A DNA stretch of 7,919 bases from Capsulimonas sp. (GTDB taxonomy: Bacteria > Armatimonadota > Armatimonadia > Armatimonadales > Capsulimonadaceae): contig JAOQAA010000332.1 in NCBI GenBank assembly GCA_025963815.1, positions 1-7,919 of the forward strand, in the 5' to 3' direction. Position 1 is the first letter of the stretch, and each line of letters begins with the position of its first letter. Below the pieces are notes generated by a model, which worked only from the letters and a program-made list of their open reading frames with translations, was not told where the DNA came from and searched no databases. Below, piece after piece: positions 1,467 to 7,221 of the stretch. A program made the position numbers and the translations under genes.

Positions 1467-2672
1467 ATGGAACTTCTCACCGCACAGTATTTACTGACCG
1501 AACCGGGACGCCTGCTGCTGGCCGAAGCAAGCGCATTACTAGCCGCGAAGGCCGAACCGGTGGTGGCGCTGACACGCCTGCGCAAGTCGGCGTCGCCGGA
1601 GATCGCAGCGGCGGCGTGGGAGATGGCGGCGTCGCGCCGCAAAGGCGTGCGTAAGTTTGGGGAATCGGCTGCCGGCATGTACTTTATCGGCGAAGCTCTG
1701 GAGCAGGCGTCGAGCGCCGGCGCGGCCGCATATCACGCCGCGCGCTTTGCATCTGTCGGAATAACATCCCTCACCGACCTCTGTGGCGGCGTCGGCGGCG
1801 ACGCCATCGCCTTCGCCCGCGCCGGGCTGCAAGTCACCGTCGTGGAGCGCGATCCCGCCCGCGCATTATTCGCTGCCGAGAACGCACGGGCGCTGGACTT
1901 GGATTCGAAGATCACCGTCCATTGCGCCGACGCCATTGACTTTCCCGTAATCACCGAAGCCGTCTGGTTCGACCCCGCCCGCCGCGTGGACAAGCGCCGC
2001 GTCGTCTCCCCCGAAGACTACTCGCCGCCGCTCTCCCTCGTCAACGATCTGCGCGATCGAGGGATCGAACACATCGGCGTCAAGCTCGCGCCGGGCATCG
2101 ACCACTCCGTCGCGGAGCAAATGGACGCGGGCCTAGAGTTTCTCTCCGACGAAGGCGAGTGCAAAGAATCCCTCTTTTGGACCGGACGATTGCGCGCCCC
2201 CGAACCCGTACGCGCCACCGTACTCCGCCCGGAAGGCGTGCAAGCGCTCGCGGGAGCGCCCGACGAAGACACCGATTTCATCCCCGCCGCGCCGTCCGAC
2301 GAAGGGGGCTATCTCTACGAACCAGACCCAGCCGTGATCCGCGCGCATCTGATCCGAACCCTGGCGCACGAACTCAGCGCCGCGCCCGTCGATCCACAGA
2401 TCGCCTATCTCATCGCCCCCGAGCTTCTCCCGACGCCCTTCGCCACGGCATATGAGATCGTCGAGCGCTTTCCCTACCACTTCAAGGTCCTGCAAAAAGC
2501 ACTGAACGCGCGCGGCGTCGGCCGCGTCGTCGTCAAAAAACGCGGCGTGCCGCACGATCCCGAAGCCGTGATCAAGCAGCTCAAGCTCAAGGGATCGAAC
2601 GAAATGACGGTTGTGTTGACGCGCATGGGCGACAAGCAAATCGCCATACTCTGCCGGCGAGTAAAAGAGTAA
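1467..2672 (+). CDS. SAM-dependent methyltransferase with C-terminal THUMP-like domain
   Basis: A 401-residue class I SAM-dependent methyltransferase of the family with a C-terminal THUMP-like domain, common in actinobacteria and Bacteroidetes; such enzymes are presumed to act on RNA, but the substrate is not established. Motif I, the SAM-binding loop, is TDLCGGVGGD at residues 103-112. The acidic residue after strand 2 is E127 in VVERDP. A motif III-like CADA is at 153-156, and a catalytic-type motif WFDPARR at 167-173 resembles the NPPY/DPPR loop. GYLYEPDPAVIRA (281-293) links to the C-terminal domain, about 328-398, which contains YEIVERFPYHF and the basic strand VVVKKRG. The N-terminal helix (LTAQYLLTEPGRLLL) fits the family start, which supports the ATG at 1467. 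The gene is divergent from lexA and 7 bp upstream of the membrane-protein array, with no terminator visible between. Part of its 3' end recurs near 4861-4941. Confidence 0.85.
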   Translation: MELLTAQYLLTEPGRLLLAEASALLAAKAEPVVALTRLRKSASPEIAAAAWEMAASRRKGVRKFGESAAGMYFIGEALEQASSAGAAAYHAARFASVGITSLTDLCGGVGGDAIAFARAGLQVTVVERDPARALFAAENARALDLDSKITVHCADAIDFPVITEAVWFDPARRVDKRRVVSPEDYSPPLSLVNDLRDRGIEHIGVKLAPGIDHSVAEQMDAGLEFLSDEGECKESLFWTGRLRAPEPVRATVLRPEGVQALAGAPDEDTDFIPAAPSDEGGYLYEPDPAVIRAHLIRTLAHELSAAPVDPQIAYLIAPELLPTPFATAYEIVERFPYHFKVLQKALNARGVGRVVVKKRGVPHDPEAVIKQLKLKGSNEMTVVLTRMGDKQIAILCRRVKE

Positions 2673-2679
2673 AGACTCA

Positions 2680-3009
2680 ATGGATGATTCTTACGATGAG
2701 GAATCGACTTCATCCAACGAGCCCCGCCAGGGCATTGTTTCGCTTCGATATCTCATCGCGAGCGCAACGCTAGCATACACGTTTGCCATACTCGTACGAT
2801 TAGGTTTGATGCCAGAGGGCTCCGCCGTCTTTGCGTTTTTTGGGATTTGGCTGATCGGTCAGCTGCTACTAATCGTGAAAGGCATTACATTTGGAATACG
2901 TGGATTTCGATCTTGGCAGGGCAAATGTGGACTTTATGGCTCCATCCTGATGGTTCTCATTGTAATTTGCATGGTGTGGTTTATTGTCAGTATCGCAGTT
3001 GGCGCCTAG
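2680..3009 (+). CDS. Small three-helix membrane protein, array paralogue A
   Basis: A 109-residue protein of unknown function, the first of seven tandem paralogues. The hydrophilic N-tail (MDDSYDEESTSSNEPRQG) is acidic and lacks the VWPPP motif of the other copies. Three membrane segments follow, roughly residues 22-42, 48-70 and 88-108. Between helices 2 and 3 lies the family loop RGFRSWQGKCGLYGS. Its positive charge suggests a cytoplasmic loop, hence N-tail inside and C-terminus outside. The ATG is 7 bp after the methyltransferase stop; it matches the start of the other copies (ATGxxTGATTC), though its ribosome binding site is poor. Around the helix 2-loop junction its DNA is closest to copy G (20 of 23 bases, 2881-2903 against 5180-5202). 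It may be translationally coupled to the methyltransferase. Confidence 0.8.
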   Translation: MDDSYDEESTSSNEPRQGIVSLRYLIASATLAYTFAILVRLGLMPEGSAVFAFFGIWLIGQLLLIVKGITFGIRGFRSWQGKCGLYGSILMVLIVICMVWFIVSIAVGA

Positions 3010-3012
3010 GAG
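3008..3012 (+). promoter_or_regulatory. Shine-Dalgarno of paralogue B overlapping the stop of A
   Basis: AGGAG lies 7 nt before the ATG at 3020 and overlaps the TAG stop of paralogue A (3007-3009). It decides the start of B over the upstream in-frame ATG at 2984, and it implies translational coupling within one mRNA. Confidence 0.7.
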
Positions 3013-3019
3013 AAGGCAT

Positions 3020-3364
3020 ATGAACGATTCCAACGATGTATGGCCGCCGCCTCCGTCGAGCCAACCACAGCATGCGCCGACACGGCGGCAGGGGCCCAGC
3101 CCTGAGGGAATTTGGGCGTATCGTTTGTTTCTTGCGAGTGTGGTGTTTCTGGCGTCCGCATTTGTATTCGGCTTTGGAGGCAGTCCCTTTTTCATGAGCC
3201 TTTGCGGAGTGTGCACCGTGGTCGGCGTAGTGTGCGGCGGCATGGGTTTTGATACTTGGCAAGGACGAACGGGGTTGTGGGGATCGTGGCTGATTTTATT
3301 GATCTTTGTACTGCCATTCCTGTTTTTTGCAATCATGTTCAGCGGCGGCCTTCATGGAGATTAG
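3020..3364 (+). CDS. Small three-helix membrane protein, array paralogue B
   Basis: A 114-residue membrane protein of unknown function. It has the family N-tail MNDSNDVWPPPPSS followed by a proline- and glutamine-rich linker to about residue 32. Three hydrophobic segments follow (about 33-55, 57-78 and 88-110), with the loop DTWQGRTGLWGS between helices 2 and 3. Unlike A, C and E it ends in GGLHGD, a feature shared only with D. The start at 3020 is chosen because of the AGGAG 7 nt upstream and because it aligns with the MN/SDSxDV start of the other copies; the frame is open upstream to 2984, inside A. It is followed at 10 bp by C, and the B-C junction is repeated exactly at the D-E junction. 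The function is not known; membrane location and topology are inferred from hydrophobicity and loop charge. Confidence 0.8.
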   Translation: MNDSNDVWPPPPSSQPQHAPTRRQGPSPEGIWAYRLFLASVVFLASAFVFGFGGSPFFMSLCGVCTVVGVVCGGMGFDTWQGRTGLWGSWLILLIFVLPFLFFAIMFSGGLHGD

Positions 3365-3379
3365 GCGTTATCAATGAGT
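3356..3379 (+). repeat. 24-bp identical junction repeat, copy 1 (B-C)
   Basis: The bases spanning the last codons of B, its TAG, the intergenic GGCGTTATCA and the start of C are identical over 24 bp to 4087-4110 between D and E. Similarity continues into the next gene (CCAAAGATGTTTGGCCACC in both). It marks a duplicated two-gene unit. Confidence 0.9.
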
Positions 3380-3730
3380 GATTCCAAAGATGTTTGGCCA
3401 CCACCGATCTCGGCTTCCAATGAGCCACCTCCCTCGCCTTCAGAGAAGCCGCAGGCAGGAATTGCCGCGCTTCGTTGTTTGCTTGCGAACGCCGCGCTGA
3501 CAATCGCATTTTTTGCGTTCGCCTTGGCGGGTTTTAAAACTACGAACAGTAATTTTGCCGTTGTGACGGGTATATGGCTGGTTGGTGAACTCATCTTAGT
3601 ATTTGCCGGCATCATACTAGGCGCGATTGGGTTGCGTTCGTGGCAGGGAAAGTGCGGCCTGATCGGCTCCATACTGTCGATTGGTTTCTTTTTCATCCTC
3701 TCATTTCTTTACGCATTCGCGTCTGCTTGA
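3374..3730 (+). CDS. Small three-helix membrane protein, array paralogue C
   Basis: A 118-residue paralogue of unknown function. Its N-tail MSDSKDVWPPP runs into a proline/serine-rich stretch to about residue 30 (IGL-type membrane region begins near GIAALRCL). Three hydrophobic segments follow at about 32-52, 60-82 and 97-117, with the loop GLRSWQGKCGLIGS between the last two. The gene starts 9 bp after the stop of B, with AGG 8 nt before the ATG, so coupled translation is likely. Its first 20 bases are also those of copy G, although the rest of the two genes has diverged strongly. Together with B it forms the unit that was duplicated to give D-E. Confidence 0.8.
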   Translation: MSDSKDVWPPPISASNEPPPSPSEKPQAGIAALRCLLANAALTIAFFAFALAGFKTTNSNFAVVTGIWLVGELILVFAGIILGAIGLRSWQGKCGLIGSILSIGFFFILSFLYAFASA

Positions 3731-3747
3731 TAAAGATTGCATTGCAA

Positions 3748-4095
3748 ATGAATGATTCGCACGATGTGGGGCCGCTTTCGCCAACCAATCAGGAAAAGTT
3801 TCCGCAACAGCAGAGAGGCCCTAAGCCGGCAGGAATTTGGTCGCTTCGATTGTTTCTAGCGAGCGTGTTGTTTGTGGCGCTCGTCTTTGTCCATGGTCTT
3901 GACGACGGAGCTTACTTCTACATTTCATCGAGCGCTATCTGCGCAGTGCTGGGTTTCGTATATGGCTGGAAAGACGCAGAATCCTGGCCGGGGAAAGTGG
4001 GACTCTTGGGCTCGTGCCTGATATTGGTGGTTTTCGTCGTTCCATTACTGTACTTCATGTCAGTGTTAGGCGGTAGTGGTCTGCACGGAGATTAG
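3748..4095 (+). CDS. Small three-helix membrane protein, array paralogue D
   Basis: A 115-residue paralogue of unknown function, closest to B: both begin MNDSxDV and end GLHGD. Its tail motif is degraded, reading DVGPLSP where the others have DVWPPPP. Its loop is also altered, reading SWPGKVGLLGS with proline replacing the usual glutamine. Three hydrophobic segments lie at about 31-48, 53-73 and 87-108. The ATG at 3748 is chosen because it aligns with the family start; the open frame extends back to 3640 inside C. There is no clear Shine-Dalgarno sequence (AAAG about 11 nt upstream), so expression may depend on coupling to C. The loss of the VWPPP tail may mean relaxed constraint or a changed partner. 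Confidence 0.75.
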   Translation: MNDSHDVGPLSPTNQEKFPQQQRGPKPAGIWSLRLFLASVLFVALVFVHGLDDGAYFYISSSAICAVLGFVYGWKDAESWPGKVGLLGSCLILVVFVVPLLYFMSVLGGSGLHGD

Positions 4096-4110
4096 GCGTT
4101 ATCAATGAGT
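4087..4110 (+). repeat. 24-bp identical junction repeat, copy 2 (D-E)
   Basis: Second copy of the B-C junction (see 3356-3379), spanning the end of D and the first codons of E. The 731-bp distance between the copies equals one two-gene unit. Confidence 0.9.
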
Positions 4111-4461
4111 AATCCCAAAGATGTTTGGCCACCGCCGCCATCAGTCCCAAATGAGCCGCCTTCGCTCCCCTCTGATATGTCGTCGGCCGGAATTGTTGCA
4201 CTGTACTGTTTTATTGCGAGCGTTACGCTGATGATTGCCTTTGCTGTCTACGTGCTCGCGGGCCTCATGGTGGGTCAAACAGCCATCCCAATTATTCTTT
4301 TTTGGCTGACTTGTGAAGTAGCTCTGATATTTTCCGGAGTCTTATTTGGGAGGCGCGGAGTACGATCCTGGCAGGGCAAAGTCGGCCTTTTTGGTTCGGC
4401 GCTGTTGGTAATGGTCGTAATTTGGTCGGTGGGATTAATTATCCATATTGCGGTGTCATGA
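4105..4461 (+). CDS. Small three-helix membrane protein, array paralogue E
   Basis: A 118-residue paralogue of unknown function, the same length as C and its nearest relative by the shared junction and N-tail (MSNPKDVWPPPPS, then NEPPSLPS where C has NEPPPSPS). Three hydrophobic segments lie at about 31-54, 58-81 and 97-117, with the loop GVRSWQGKVGLFGS. It starts 9 bp after the stop of D with the same spacing signal as C. It is followed by 50 bp before F, the first gap in the array larger than about 20 bp. No terminator is visible in that gap. Confidence 0.8.
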   Translation: MSNPKDVWPPPPSVPNEPPSLPSDMSSAGIVALYCFIASVTLMIAFAVYVLAGLMVGQTAIPIILFWLTCEVALIFSGVLFGRRGVRSWQGKVGLFGSALLVMVVIWSVGLIIHIAVS

Positions 4462-4511
4462 CATGTACAATCTCAGCCCATCTGTCGCAGTGTGCAGAAT
4501 AATAAAGTTAT

Positions 4512-4862
4512 ATGAGTGCTTCCAACAATGTCTGGCCTCCGCCGCCCTCAGGTCCATCCCCGCCTTTGACGTCGAACGCGAAGCCAACGAAAGCATGGGT
4601 GGGGATCATCGGATTGTGCTGTTTCGCGGTAGTTTTTCTTATTATGCTCGTATGGTTTGTAGAGTTAGGTCATGGTATTGTGCAAACCGGAGCGAGGGGC
4701 GCCTTAGGGGGATTGGCCGTTATCATTCTGACGCCTGTAGGGATTGGGTTCGGAATCGTCGGCCGGCGATGTTGGCAAGGGAAGGTTGGATTATGGGGGT
4801 TGCTCCTACTGATTGCCGCCTTTCTTGCGCTGTGGTGTTGGGTGACTATATTCCGGTTTTGA
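4512..4862 (+). CDS. Small three-helix membrane protein, array paralogue F
   Basis: A 116-residue paralogue of unknown function. Its N-tail MSASNNVWPPPPSGPSPP replaces the aspartate of the DVW motif with asparagine, and the linker is lysine-containing (NAKPTKAW). Three hydrophobic segments lie at about 30-52, 64-84 and 93-114. The loop RRCWQGKVGLWGL is the only one lacking the serine that ends the motif in the other copies. The start is set by homology; the upstream AATAAAG is a poor ribosome site. The stop codon abuts the decayed methyltransferase 3'-end copy, so the C-terminus may have been set by that junction. A longer open frame at 4448-4942 overlaps it in another phase, has no family resemblance and is disregarded. 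Confidence 0.78.
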   Translation: MSASNNVWPPPPSGPSPPLTSNAKPTKAWVGIIGLCCFAVVFLIMLVWFVELGHGIVQTGARGALGGLAVIILTPVGIGFGIVGRRCWQGKVGLWGLLLLIAAFLALWCWVTIFRF

Positions 4863-4941
4863 TGCTCATGGGAGCAGAGACGAAATCCCATCGTGCTTAC
4901 GCGCATAGGCGACAAGTGATTATATTTCTCCCCGTCGTCTA
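4861..4941 (+). pseudogene. Decayed copy of the 3' end of the methyltransferase gene
   Basis: This intergenic stretch aligns with the last part of the methyltransferase gene (about 2582-2665). ACGCGCATAGGCGACAAG at 4899-4916 matches 2619-2636 in 17 of 18 bases. GCTCATGGGA at 4864-4873 matches GCTCAAGGGA at 2585-2594, and ACGAAAT occurs in both between them. Translated, 4893-4916 reads VLTRIGDK where the intact protein has VLTRMGDK, then hits a TGA. Small indels break the frame upstream, so it is non-coding. Distances to the following ATG are nearly equal in both places (ATG of A and ATG of G). It is best read as the edge of an old tandem duplication that included the methyltransferase 3' end and the first gene of the array. 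Confidence 0.8.
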
Positions 4942-4957
4942 GAAGGGAAGATACCAA

Positions 4958-5290
4958 ATGAGTGATTCCAAAGATGTGTGGCCGCCGCCGCCAACCAACG
5001 TTCCGTTGCCACCGCCATTACCGCCCAGTAGGATGCGGTCAGCCATAATTTCATTCTCCTGTTTCATATTGTACATATTTCTGGTTATTGCGTGGTTTGT
5101 CATTACAGCGTTTGGCGCGATGGCCACAAGAGTGCGCACCGGTGATGTCGAGTTGGGCTCCTTGGTAGTGACGCTTGCAGGCATTGGGTTTGGAATACGT
5201 GGCTGGAGGCATTGGCAGGGAAAGATCGGGCTCATCGGCTCCGCGCTGTTACTTTTCGCCTTTGTCGTGCTAATGATTTATTTCTTGTAA
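4958..5290 (+). CDS. Small three-helix membrane protein, array paralogue G
   Basis: A 110-residue paralogue of unknown function and the last of the array. Its N-tail MSDSKDVWPPPPTNVPLPPP is the most proline-rich of the seven. Three hydrophobic segments lie at about 27-51, 64-78 (short) and 91-110. The loop reads GWRHWQGKIGLIGS. The start has AAGGGA about 9 nt upstream, the best ribosome site in the array after that of B, which would allow independent translation after the 95-bp gap. The 5' end is nearly identical to C, while the helix 2-loop junction is nearest to A; the gene therefore looks mosaic or gene-converted. The decayed methyltransferase end just upstream supports G as a copy of the array's first gene. 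Confidence 0.8.
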   Translation: MSDSKDVWPPPPTNVPLPPPLPPSRMRSAIISFSCFILYIFLVIAWFVITAFGAMATRVRTGDVELGSLVVTLAGIGFGIRGWRHWQGKIGLIGSALLLFAFVVLMIYFL

Positions 5291-5323: not shown

Positions 5324-6616
5324 TTGGAGATTAGTGACGTCAAAGTTCTCGGCGCTTCGCGCGGGGATCGTATTTATAACTTTTTCTCCTGCGTGATCGA
5401 TTCGATCGGCTGGCCGCTGGGGATGGCGTTCTTTTCGAACACCATCATCCTGCCGGTTTTCCTGGCGCATTTGGGCGCGTCGGATCTGCTCGTCGGCTGC
5501 GTTCCCGCGCTGATGAACTTGCTGATCACGCTGCCGGGGTTTCTGGTCGTTCCGTATCTGAGCCGGCGGCGCGTGCGGGGATTCTTGTTCTGGATCGCTT
5601 TGCTGGAGCGCTTCGCCCTGCTGCCGCTGGCGCCGCTGACGCTGGTTCTGGGCGTGGCGCATCCGCAGTGGATGATTGTGGCGCTCTTCGGCTGCTTGAC
5701 GGTTCATGCGACCATGATGGGGCTGAACCAGCCGGCGTACTGGATGGCGGTGGGCAAGACGATCCCGAGCCATTGGCGCGGGCGGCTGTACGGCGTTGCG
5801 GGCGGGATCGGCGGCGTGCTCAGCATTGGGGTGGAGCGTCTGCTGAGCCATCTGCTTTCGGGGCCGAACGGGGGATTTCCCGGGGGATACAGCAAGGGCT
5901 TTTTGATCGGGTTCCTGATCCTGACATTTACCGTGCTGCCGCTGGGACTGCTGCGCGAGCCGGATAGCCCGGTCGTCGTGGACAAAAGCGCGCACCCGCC
6001 GTTCGCCGGCGAGCTCAAGCGCGTCTTACGGGGCAATCATAGTTTCCGGCAATACCTCTACGCTCAAACGGCCTTTCAGCTTGCGGCGGGCGTGACGCCG
6101 TTCTACATCCTCTACGCCCAGCGCGACATTGGGGCGAATACAGCGGCGATCGCCGCGTTCACCGGGGTGATGATCTGCGTGACGGCCTTCGGCGGCCTGG
6201 GGTGGGGCGCCTGGGCGGACCGCGCGGGCAACAAAGTCGTCCTGCTGTCGGCGTCCGTTTGCGCGGTCCTGGCGCCCGTCGCCGCATTGATCGCGCACGC
6301 GCCGGTCGAGTTCTACGCCGTCTTCGTGCTGCTCGCCTTATTGGCGGCGGCGAGCAACATTGCCGCCGCCAACATCGTGATGGAGTTTGCCAGCGAAGCG
6401 CACGAGATCGGCCTCTACATGAGCATCGCCAACGTCGTCACCGCCCTCCCACGCACCGTCGCCACCCTCCTCGGCGGCGCCGTCGCCTCCCTCACCCACG
6501 GCTACCGTGTCGGCTTCGCCCTCTCGGCCATGCTGGCTTTGGTCAGTTTAGTGCTGACGCTTCGGGTGACGGAGCCAAGGATCAAGGTCGAGTTGCCGCT
6601 GCCGCCGGGGCCATAA
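5324..6616 (+). CDS. Major facilitator superfamily (MFS) transporter
   Basis: A 430-residue inner-membrane transporter with about 12 hydrophobic segments in two halves, separated by a hydrophilic linker at about 211-240. The canonical MFS motif A is visible in the second half (GWGAWADRAGNK, about 293-304); its counterpart after helix 2 is only a degenerate PYLSRRRVRG. WRGRLYGVAGG at 151-161 is a conserved-looking cytoplasmic loop near helix 5. The substrate cannot be told; drug or metabolite efflux is typical of such orphans. The start is uncertain: the frame is closed at 5288 and has no ATG or GTG before the first helix, so TTG at 5324 (weak GAAAG upstream) is the best choice. It follows paralogue G by 33 bp with no terminator visible. 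Its last 26 codons recur at 7141-7221. Confidence 0.87.
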   Translation: MEISDVKVLGASRGDRIYNFFSCVIDSIGWPLGMAFFSNTIILPVFLAHLGASDLLVGCVPALMNLLITLPGFLVVPYLSRRRVRGFLFWIALLERFALLPLAPLTLVLGVAHPQWMIVALFGCLTVHATMMGLNQPAYWMAVGKTIPSHWRGRLYGVAGGIGGVLSIGVERLLSHLLSGPNGGFPGGYSKGFLIGFLILTFTVLPLGLLREPDSPVVVDKSAHPPFAGELKRVLRGNHSFRQYLYAQTAFQLAAGVTPFYILYAQRDIGANTAAIAAFTGVMICVTAFGGLGWGAWADRAGNKVVLLSASVCAVLAPVAALIAHAPVEFYAVFVLLALLAAASNIAAANIVMEFASEAHEIGLYMSIANVVTALPRTVATLLGGAVASLTHGYRVGFALSAMLALVSLVLTLRVTEPRIKVELPLPPGP

Positions 6617-7140: not shown

Positions 7141-7221
7141 TCGCTGGTGAGTTTATTGCTGACGTTGCGTGTGGCGGAGCCTCGGATCAAGGTCGAGCGG
7201 CCGCTGCCGCCGGGGCCTTAG
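7141..7221 (+). pseudogene. Copy of the 3' end of the MFS gene
   Basis: Translated in the frame that follows the preceding TAA, this stretch reads SLVSLLLTLRVAEPRIKV then ERPLPPGP and a stop, against the MFS C-terminus ALVSLVLTLRVTEPRIKV then ELPLPPGP. From the second codon it is 22 of 25 residues identical and 65 of 78 bases identical. Most changes are synonymous and there are no indels, and the stop codon is kept (TAG for TAA). It has no start and is not a gene now. The pattern implies descent from a homologous but already diverged MFS gene rather than a very recent duplicate. Confidence 0.88.

Follow-up and report, generated by a model that had tools for sequence, protein, structure and literature searches.

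We asked what a tandem array of seven small genes of an uncharacterised family might do in Capsulimonas sp. (phylum Armatimonadota, family Capsulimonadaceae). The array lies on the forward strand of a stretch of 7,919 nt (contig JAOQAA010000332.1 of assembly GCA_025963815.1), called here the window, and it encodes seven paralogues that are predicted to span the membrane three times. Five of the seven carry VWPPP in their N-terminal tail. Because VWPPP is also found on unrelated proteins of this bacterium and its relatives that are likewise predicted to lie in the membrane, the tail may well be a docking tag, that is, a peptide by which these proteins would bind one common cytosolic partner; we give this reading a rough probability of 0.45. 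The tail motifs of the array are the following.

3038-3055, forward strand, tail motif VWPPPP of gene 2
3392-3409, forward strand, tail motif VWPPPI of gene 3
4123-4140, forward strand, tail motif VWPPPP of gene 5
4530-4547, forward strand, tail motif VWPPPP of gene 6
4976-4993, forward strand, tail motif VWPPPP of gene 7

Where else does this tail occur? The motif [VA]WPPPP recurs, in many cases close to a protein end, on unrelated proteins with a predicted membrane location in the window genome (a draft of 4.77 Mb, 69% complete, with the array on contig C137), in the same-genus relative Capsulimonas corticalis (a single contig of 7.6 Mb) and in a third genome, G004. Among the loci read for motif position, which are a chosen part of the VWPPxP places, it stands at the N-ends of four tandem DUF4328-type genes in C. 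corticalis and of three homologues in the window genome, at C-ends (e.g. NDDVWPPPPKR-stop and EEGVWPPPPRR-stop) and also in linkers. The carriers belong to DUF4328, to YcxB-like proteins and to proteins that combine a zinc ribbon with helices, while most of the scanned carriers have no Pfam family above cut-off, and the codons of the motif differ at synonymous positions. In DNA, counted on both strands, the VWPPxP pattern compared with its reversed pattern as 19 versus 4 in the window genome, 22 versus 10 in C. corticalis and 43 versus 13 in G004; the same counts were 19 versus 9 in G006, 12 versus 5 in G002, 9 versus 7 in G007, 3 versus 3 in G003, 0 versus 2 in G005 and 13 versus 25 in G014.

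We determined how often WPPPP is part of a protein from codon usage, with a caller that accepts a frame only if its codon score is positive and the best of all six and that misses AT-rich genes. In C. corticalis all 50 genomic places of WPPPP were examined, and at 15 of them the motif was coding in frame. Each of these 15 proteins has at least one predicted helix, compared with 94 of 234 called open reading frames (ORFs) in a background sample, which consisted of 17 stretches, each of 20 kb, placed at round coordinates. The motif lay ≤40 residues from a terminus in 11 of the 15 and ≤7 residues from the stop codon in five. The control patterns PPPPW (34 places, 33 examined) and FPPPP (34 places, 30 examined) were each coding only once (Fisher p 0.0018 and 0.0035, respectively, against WPPPP). 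The 15 are not independent of one another. When the four tandem DUF4328-type genes, a set of three neighbours and a set of two were each counted as one, nine loci or groups were left, and WPPPP was then coding in 9/44 cases versus 2/63 for the pooled controls (p 0.007); all nine had a helix, an outcome with a probability of 2.7e-4 at the background rate.

The two other genomes were also counted. In the window genome 14 of 34 WPPPP contexts were coding (these contexts represent 32 places, as some clipped ones were probably counted twice), and 11 of the 14 proteins had a predicted helix. Among the first 30 of 132 places in G004, five were coding, four of these with a helix and all five with the motif near a terminus. 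None of the 10 PPPPW places examined in each of these genomes (21 and 44 places exist) was coding. In addition, Lys and Arg were more frequent on the motif-facing side of the nearest helix in 31 of 52 carrier rows, less frequent in 14 and equal in 7 (sign test 0.016; a few of the 52 rows are clipped duplicates).

If the tail is a docking peptide, a protein partner would bind it, the Trp together with the polyproline run would be what this partner reads, and the partner would gather or localise the tail-bearing membrane proteins; the expansion of the array would then have diversified the membrane part while the copies kept a tag in common. It is only by analogy with eukaryotes that a Trp and a proline run at the probable cytosolic end of many membrane proteins are best read in this way. 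There, WPPPP is described as a VASP (EVH1) binding motif (PMC11237882) and WPPPPRVPR as a WW-domain ligand (PMC4464085). The array tail has the same core as these ligands, a Trp followed by a run of prolines; unlike them, it does not belong to a eukaryotic system but sits at the ends of predicted bacterial membrane proteins. A bolder version would make VWPPPP a cytosolic address tag throughout the Capsulimonadaceae, present on dozens of membrane proteins from unrelated families and recognised by a single adaptor of EVH1-like specificity that brings them into a common membrane assembly, with the array supplying variant subunits; this version we regard as unlikely. Should the tag be read at all, it would represent a scaffold-like docking code, of a kind known from eukaryotes, across unrelated membrane proteins, in a phylum with, in our judgement, little cell biology, and a peptide of six residues could serve as bait for its partner. 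The uncharacterised array family, like several DUFs beside it, would then have a first handle. Our literature search on Capsulimonas, C. corticalis and WPPPP found no earlier description among the papers listed.

Several observations weigh against a docking tag. No partner was found, GYF_2 (PF14237) being the sole reader domain searched for and EVH1, WW and SH3 not having been searched. GYF_2 was present in 11 of 21 genomes, once in the window genome and not at all in C. corticalis or G004, and we therefore rejected it as a general reader. Two of the seven array genes lack the tail. After collapsing, the contrast with a single control is only at ∼0.04 (9/44 versus 1/33 for PPPPW, p 0.037, and versus 1/30 for FPPPP, p 0.042). 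In the window genome three of the 14 carriers have no helix (one is clipped by a contig end, one is a probable acyl carrier protein), and the motif lies ≤40 residues from a terminus in only 6 of the 14, some starts having been called too far upstream. In G004 the caller left 25 of the 30 places out of the coding set. Its codon-usage rule is crude, its training genome was C. corticalis, and the four WPPPP genes of the window itself escape it. Between species, 40 of 42 motif columns are conserved, versus 89 of 191 in the flanks, a comparison that is biased because the motif itself served to select six of the seven pairs. Finally, across 61 genomes of the phylum WPPPP exceeded its reversed pattern at the DNA level in 36, fell below it in 20 and equalled it in 5, and the excess was large in G019 (103 versus 29), G032 (124 versus 19), G029 and G045. 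Frames were read only inside the bacterial family, and the tail may thus reach beyond it.

These DNA-level counts bear directly on the alternative that the tails are low-complexity, disordered ends and that the shared WPPPP reflects composition and duplication within gene families. Small membrane proteins of bacteria often have proline-rich ends, high-GC genomes contain many CCN runs, and an excess was seen in 36 of the 61 genomes. Several carriers are neighbouring paralogues, and it is their collapsing that brings p to ∼0.04 per control. Against this alternative, PPPPW and FPPPP were coding at only 1/33 and 1/30 places, the carriers belong to different families, and the array genes are AT-rich and yet five of the seven keep the tail. 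We consider this explanation unlikely, but composition together with paralogy remains a serious rival of the docking tag.

Could the proline run instead act during translation? It might be a pausing signal, relieved by EF-P, that stands near the start or after a helix and aids membrane insertion, with no binding partner involved. E. coli proteins show an enrichment of polyproline motifs close to their start sites and also downstream of transmembrane helices, and a role as an insertion aid has been proposed (PMC5811046). The array tail resembles these motifs in being a proline run close to a start, and the median distance of 29 residues between WPPPP and the nearest helix would suit such a role. 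It differs in that the motifs described in the available part of the same paper include no Trp and are not named as a shared tag, whereas here the Trp seems to matter (FPPPP was coding at 1/30 places and WPPPP at 15/50). Moreover, a pause before helix 1, which is where the array tail lies, cannot wait for a helix that has not yet been made. Pausing would account for the prolines but not for the Trp, and we hold it to be rather improbable.

The weakest alternative, an orphan immunity array of RHS-type polymorphic toxins grown by duplication, we find very improbable. In its favour, immunity genes that have diversified in tandem arrays are known, and one distant relative (P0010) lies ∼100 nt 3′ of an RHS-associated core gene (TIGR03696, E 2.7e-16). 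Against it, the scan of the window genes gave no RHS gene, and none was seen by eye next to the array in C. corticalis; the neighbours in the two Capsulimonas genomes are a methyltransferase gene and an MFS gene. The fragment beside the G004 relative is RHS-like by eye only (nothing in NCBIfam; Pfam Tox-PAAR-like below cut-off, E 0.024), PADLOC gave no match, and the same tail is found on proteins of other families.

Some of the proteins that share the tail also share the arrangement of the array. The DUF4328 (PF14219) proteins with VWPPPP are likewise small, multi-helix proteins with an N-terminal tail that are encoded in tandem (four genes in C. corticalis, PF14219 having been shown in three of them), but they are about twice as long and represent another family, as the array proteins do not match PF14219. 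In a whole-protein search, the DUF4328 homologue P0014 on another contig starts with a GVWPPPP tail, while P0012 begins after the tail region. At 2645-4843 of locus L030 (contig C178 of the window genome) there are three tandem Clp_N genes with a WPPAP/WPPPP linker and a hydrophobic end, the third of which looks shortened (PF02861, E 5.5e-9, 1.1e-13 and 3e-13). Their products resemble the array proteins in that hydrophobic segments follow the WPPAP/WPPPP linker and in being encoded in tandem, and they match the profile of the window family (hhalign probability 92% over 82 columns), but unlike the array proteins they have a Clp_N domain in front. As the hhalign match takes in the tail itself and was built on three sequences, the helices may, but need not, be of common descent. 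Three tandem VWPPPP genes with hydrophobic segments were also seen in G004 (locus L155, 1672-2839, contig C101); two of the three were scanned, and a zinc ribbon scored above the Pfam cut-off in one and just below it in the other. Two single carriers were noted as well. A probable acyl carrier protein of the window genome (locus L147, 1800-2048, contig C305; PF00550, E 1.7e-11) ends in NVWPPPPIC and has no predicted helix, and in G004 (locus L027, 5324-5419, contig C308) a start reading MDTWPPPPTQPPEPP at a contig end is probably a further carrier that has been cut off.

We now turn to the array itself, the genes and conserved loops of which are listed here. For genes 2 and 4 we used the start that matches the family; the ORF list had longer 5′ extensions.

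2680-3009, forward strand, gene 1, 109 residues, without the VWPPP tail, orthologue of C. corticalis CCAX7_008060
3020-3364, forward strand, gene 2, 114 residues, 2/4 type
3374-3730, forward strand, gene 3, 118 residues, AlphaFold2 model with three helices
3748-4095, forward strand, gene 4, 115 residues, 2/4 type, degenerate tail VGPLSP, close to P0005 and P0007 from other samples
4105-4461, forward strand, gene 5, 118 residues
4512-4862, forward strand, gene 6, 116 residues, clusters with gene 7 (tree support 93/91)
4958-5290, forward strand, gene 7, 110 residues, orthologue of the second C. corticalis copy
2914-2940, forward strand, conserved loop WQGKCGLYG of gene 1
3257-3283, forward strand, conserved loop of gene 2
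3641-3667, forward strand, conserved loop of gene 3
3985-4011, forward strand, conserved loop of gene 4
4369-4395, forward strand, conserved loop of gene 5
4773-4799, forward strand, conserved loop of gene 6
5213-5239, forward strand, conserved loop of gene 7

The original prediction, made from the letters of the window, had described seven consecutive small genes on one strand in an AT-rich array, and both points hold: the ORFs encode 109-118 residues, all seven frames are intact, and the GC content of the genes is 0.48-0.55 versus 0.65 in each flanking gene. The almost invariant loop that it proposed, W-x-G-[KR]-x-G-L-x-G, is indeed present between helices 2 and 3 in all seven proteins, and also in both C. 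corticalis copies; it is partly kept in the distant relative P0009 and not kept in P0010, the one beside the RHS gene. The tail fared less well. It was described as shared and fixed, but VWPPP is present in genes 2, 3, 5, 6 and 7 only (exact WPPPP in four, WPPPI in one more) and in one of the two C. corticalis copies, while gene 1 has an acidic tail without the proline motif and gene 4 reads VGPLSP. The suggestion that such a tail is recognised by a partner gains from the recurrence of VWPPPP on unrelated predicted membrane proteins and loses from these two genes.

Three hydrophobic segments, also proposed at the outset, were detected by a hydropathy script in six of the seven proteins, gene 2 showing two. 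An AlphaFold2 model of the gene 3 protein, built on an alignment of 13 sequences, has helices at residues 26-51, 60-85 and 90-117 (mean pLDDT 76.6, pTM 0.52), and a Foldseek search of this model against the PDB gave 25 matches, none with E ≤ 0.001. For the seven proteins the predicted topology has three membrane passages, an inner N-terminus and an outer C-terminus, which would place the tail and the loop in the cytoplasm. The positive-inside charge on which the original topology was based is clear for the loop in most copies; it is weaker for the tail, which is partly acidic. The copies do differ widely elsewhere, as was claimed, in that the others are 22-45% identical to gene 1, but this applies less to the clade of genes 2 and 4, to the cluster of genes 6 and 7 and to the block that genes 2-3 share with genes 4-5.

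We also asked whether the family is known. None of the seven proteins has a match above cut-off in Pfam, NCBIfam or PADLOC (best sub-threshold matches: UbiA in Pfam, E 0.024, and E 0.35 in NCBIfam; none at E ≤ 1 in PADLOC), in agreement with the earlier failure to match the array to a known system. DUF4190, with a fold that we take to be similar to that of the array proteins, was not among their Pfam matches; a profile-profile comparison with it was not made. A profile of the seven proteins run against 5.8 billion proteins gave eight matches at E ≤ 0.001. Three of these are proteins of the window itself (P0001, P0002 and P0004, from genes 3, 2 and 1). P0003, on a 70-kb contig, differs from gene 4 in one residue, P0006 corresponds to gene 7 but is shorter, P0008 belongs to C. 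corticalis, and P0005 and P0007 come from other samples. Thus, close homologues were found by this protein profile search only in Capsulimonas and in unnamed samples.

More distant relatives appeared in genome searches. When the profile was built from only the seven proteins of the window, 10 of 61 genomes matched at E ≤ 0.1, the best matches outside the genus being in G004 (1.8e-7) and G011 (4.5e-6), while the RHS-side relative of C. corticalis reached only 0.067. A wider alignment, A3, which contains the G004 and RHS-side sequences, was scored on no more than 15 candidates in each of 291 genomes of the phylum, and nine of these genomes matched at E ≤ 0.01; it returns these sequences as P0009 and P0010, with scores that are strong by construction. 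In C. corticalis, at locus L028, the RHS core gene (1619-4450) is followed by the distant relative (4552-4887) with the tail TWPPAP, possibly a toxin-immunity pair. Gene 3 had no match among plasmids and phages, and alignment A5 gave no confirmed relative among viral contigs; an origin of the array from a mobile element was therefore rejected. Two scans of GTDB contigs also gave no confirmed relative, although very near genomes may be absent there, and C. corticalis was not returned.

Are the genes maintained, and how did the array arise? The same two neighbours, methyltransferase and MFS, enclose two family copies in C. corticalis, and the first of these copies overlaps the methyltransferase stop codon. 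In the tree, gene 1 groups with the first copy (support 99/98) and gene 7 with the second (91/90); an earlier tree gave 100/98 and 88/85. The dN/dS values with these orthologues are 0.33 for gene 1 and 0.19 for gene 7 (Nei-Gojobori), and because of these values the two orthologous pairs are under purifying selection and are not decaying junk. The original prediction would have been undone by an absence of homologues with dN/dS near 1 in all copies; this was not the case for genes 1 and 7, the only two that could be tested. For comparison, the methyltransferase and its orthologue have a dN of 0.07 and a dS of 0.60. Among paralogue pairs dN/dS was 0.19-0.48 where dS could be computed, but dS was ≥1.5 and the values are hence unsafe. 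Variable sensing or pore parts, as originally suggested, are conceivable; in both orthologous pairs the helix 1-2 stretch is the most variable segment and the conserved loop the least; helix 3 of gene 1 is as variable as the tail of gene 1.

Genes 2 and 4 form a supported clade, inside which P0005 and P0007 group with gene 4 (support 100/99), and therefore the split between genes 2 and 4 predates those lineages. Gene 6 clusters with gene 7 and its C. corticalis orthologue, and genes 3 and 5 have no resolved position. The array grew by tandem duplication, with the block of genes 2-3 copied as genes 4-5 and a remnant of the methyltransferase gene left 5′ of gene 7.

3347-3531, forward strand, first copy of the duplicated block, across genes 2 and 3 (71% identical over 185 nt to the second copy, spacing 731)
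4078-4262, forward strand, second copy of the duplicated block, across genes 4 and 5
4864-4916, forward strand, remnant of the end of the methyltransferase gene (3′ part; 78% over 54 columns against 2585-2636, E 6.6e-4 when 3.1 kb was compared with itself)

The remnant is likely a fossil of tandem duplication, lying in front of gene 7. In the second C. corticalis copy the left side matches the start of gene 2 and the gap between genes 1 and 2, and the body matches gene 7. Such a pattern would result if the repeated tail region had recombined and a longer array had thereby lost its middle in C. corticalis; alternatively, the array may have expanded in the window species.

The gaps between the seven genes are, in order, 10, 9, 17, 9, 50 and 95 nt, and the short ones suggest a single transcript for genes 1-5 at least. 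Promoter-like sites numbered 3 (2.2 expected) and terminator-like sites 8 (4.2 expected), and an Rfam search of the window found no structured RNA. From left to right the window contains a DinB/MST-like gene and LexA (both on the reverse strand), a THUMP-like methyltransferase gene, the array, an MFS transporter gene and a DUF6855 gene (all on the forward strand) and a reverse-strand gene with only sub-threshold TPR-like matches. The two immediate neighbours of the array are listed here.

1467-2672, forward strand, THUMP-like class I S-adenosylmethionine (SAM) methyltransferase gene (Pfam PF18096, E 9.1e-20), left neighbour of the array in both Capsulimonas genomes
5324-6616, forward strand, MFS transporter gene (Pfam PF07690, E 2.2e-20), right neighbour of the array in C. 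corticalis too

The methyltransferase orthologue in C. corticalis is 88% identical and is followed by the two array genes, whereas in 11 methyltransferase loci of other genera, inspected by eye and in part incomplete, no family member was seen downstream. On the other side of the array, the last 76 nt of the MFS gene (6540-6615) are repeated with 86% identity at 7145-7220, 3′ of the DUF6855 gene. The DUF6855 gene is thus flanked by two copies of the MFS 3′ end, which is another trace of tandem duplication in the window.

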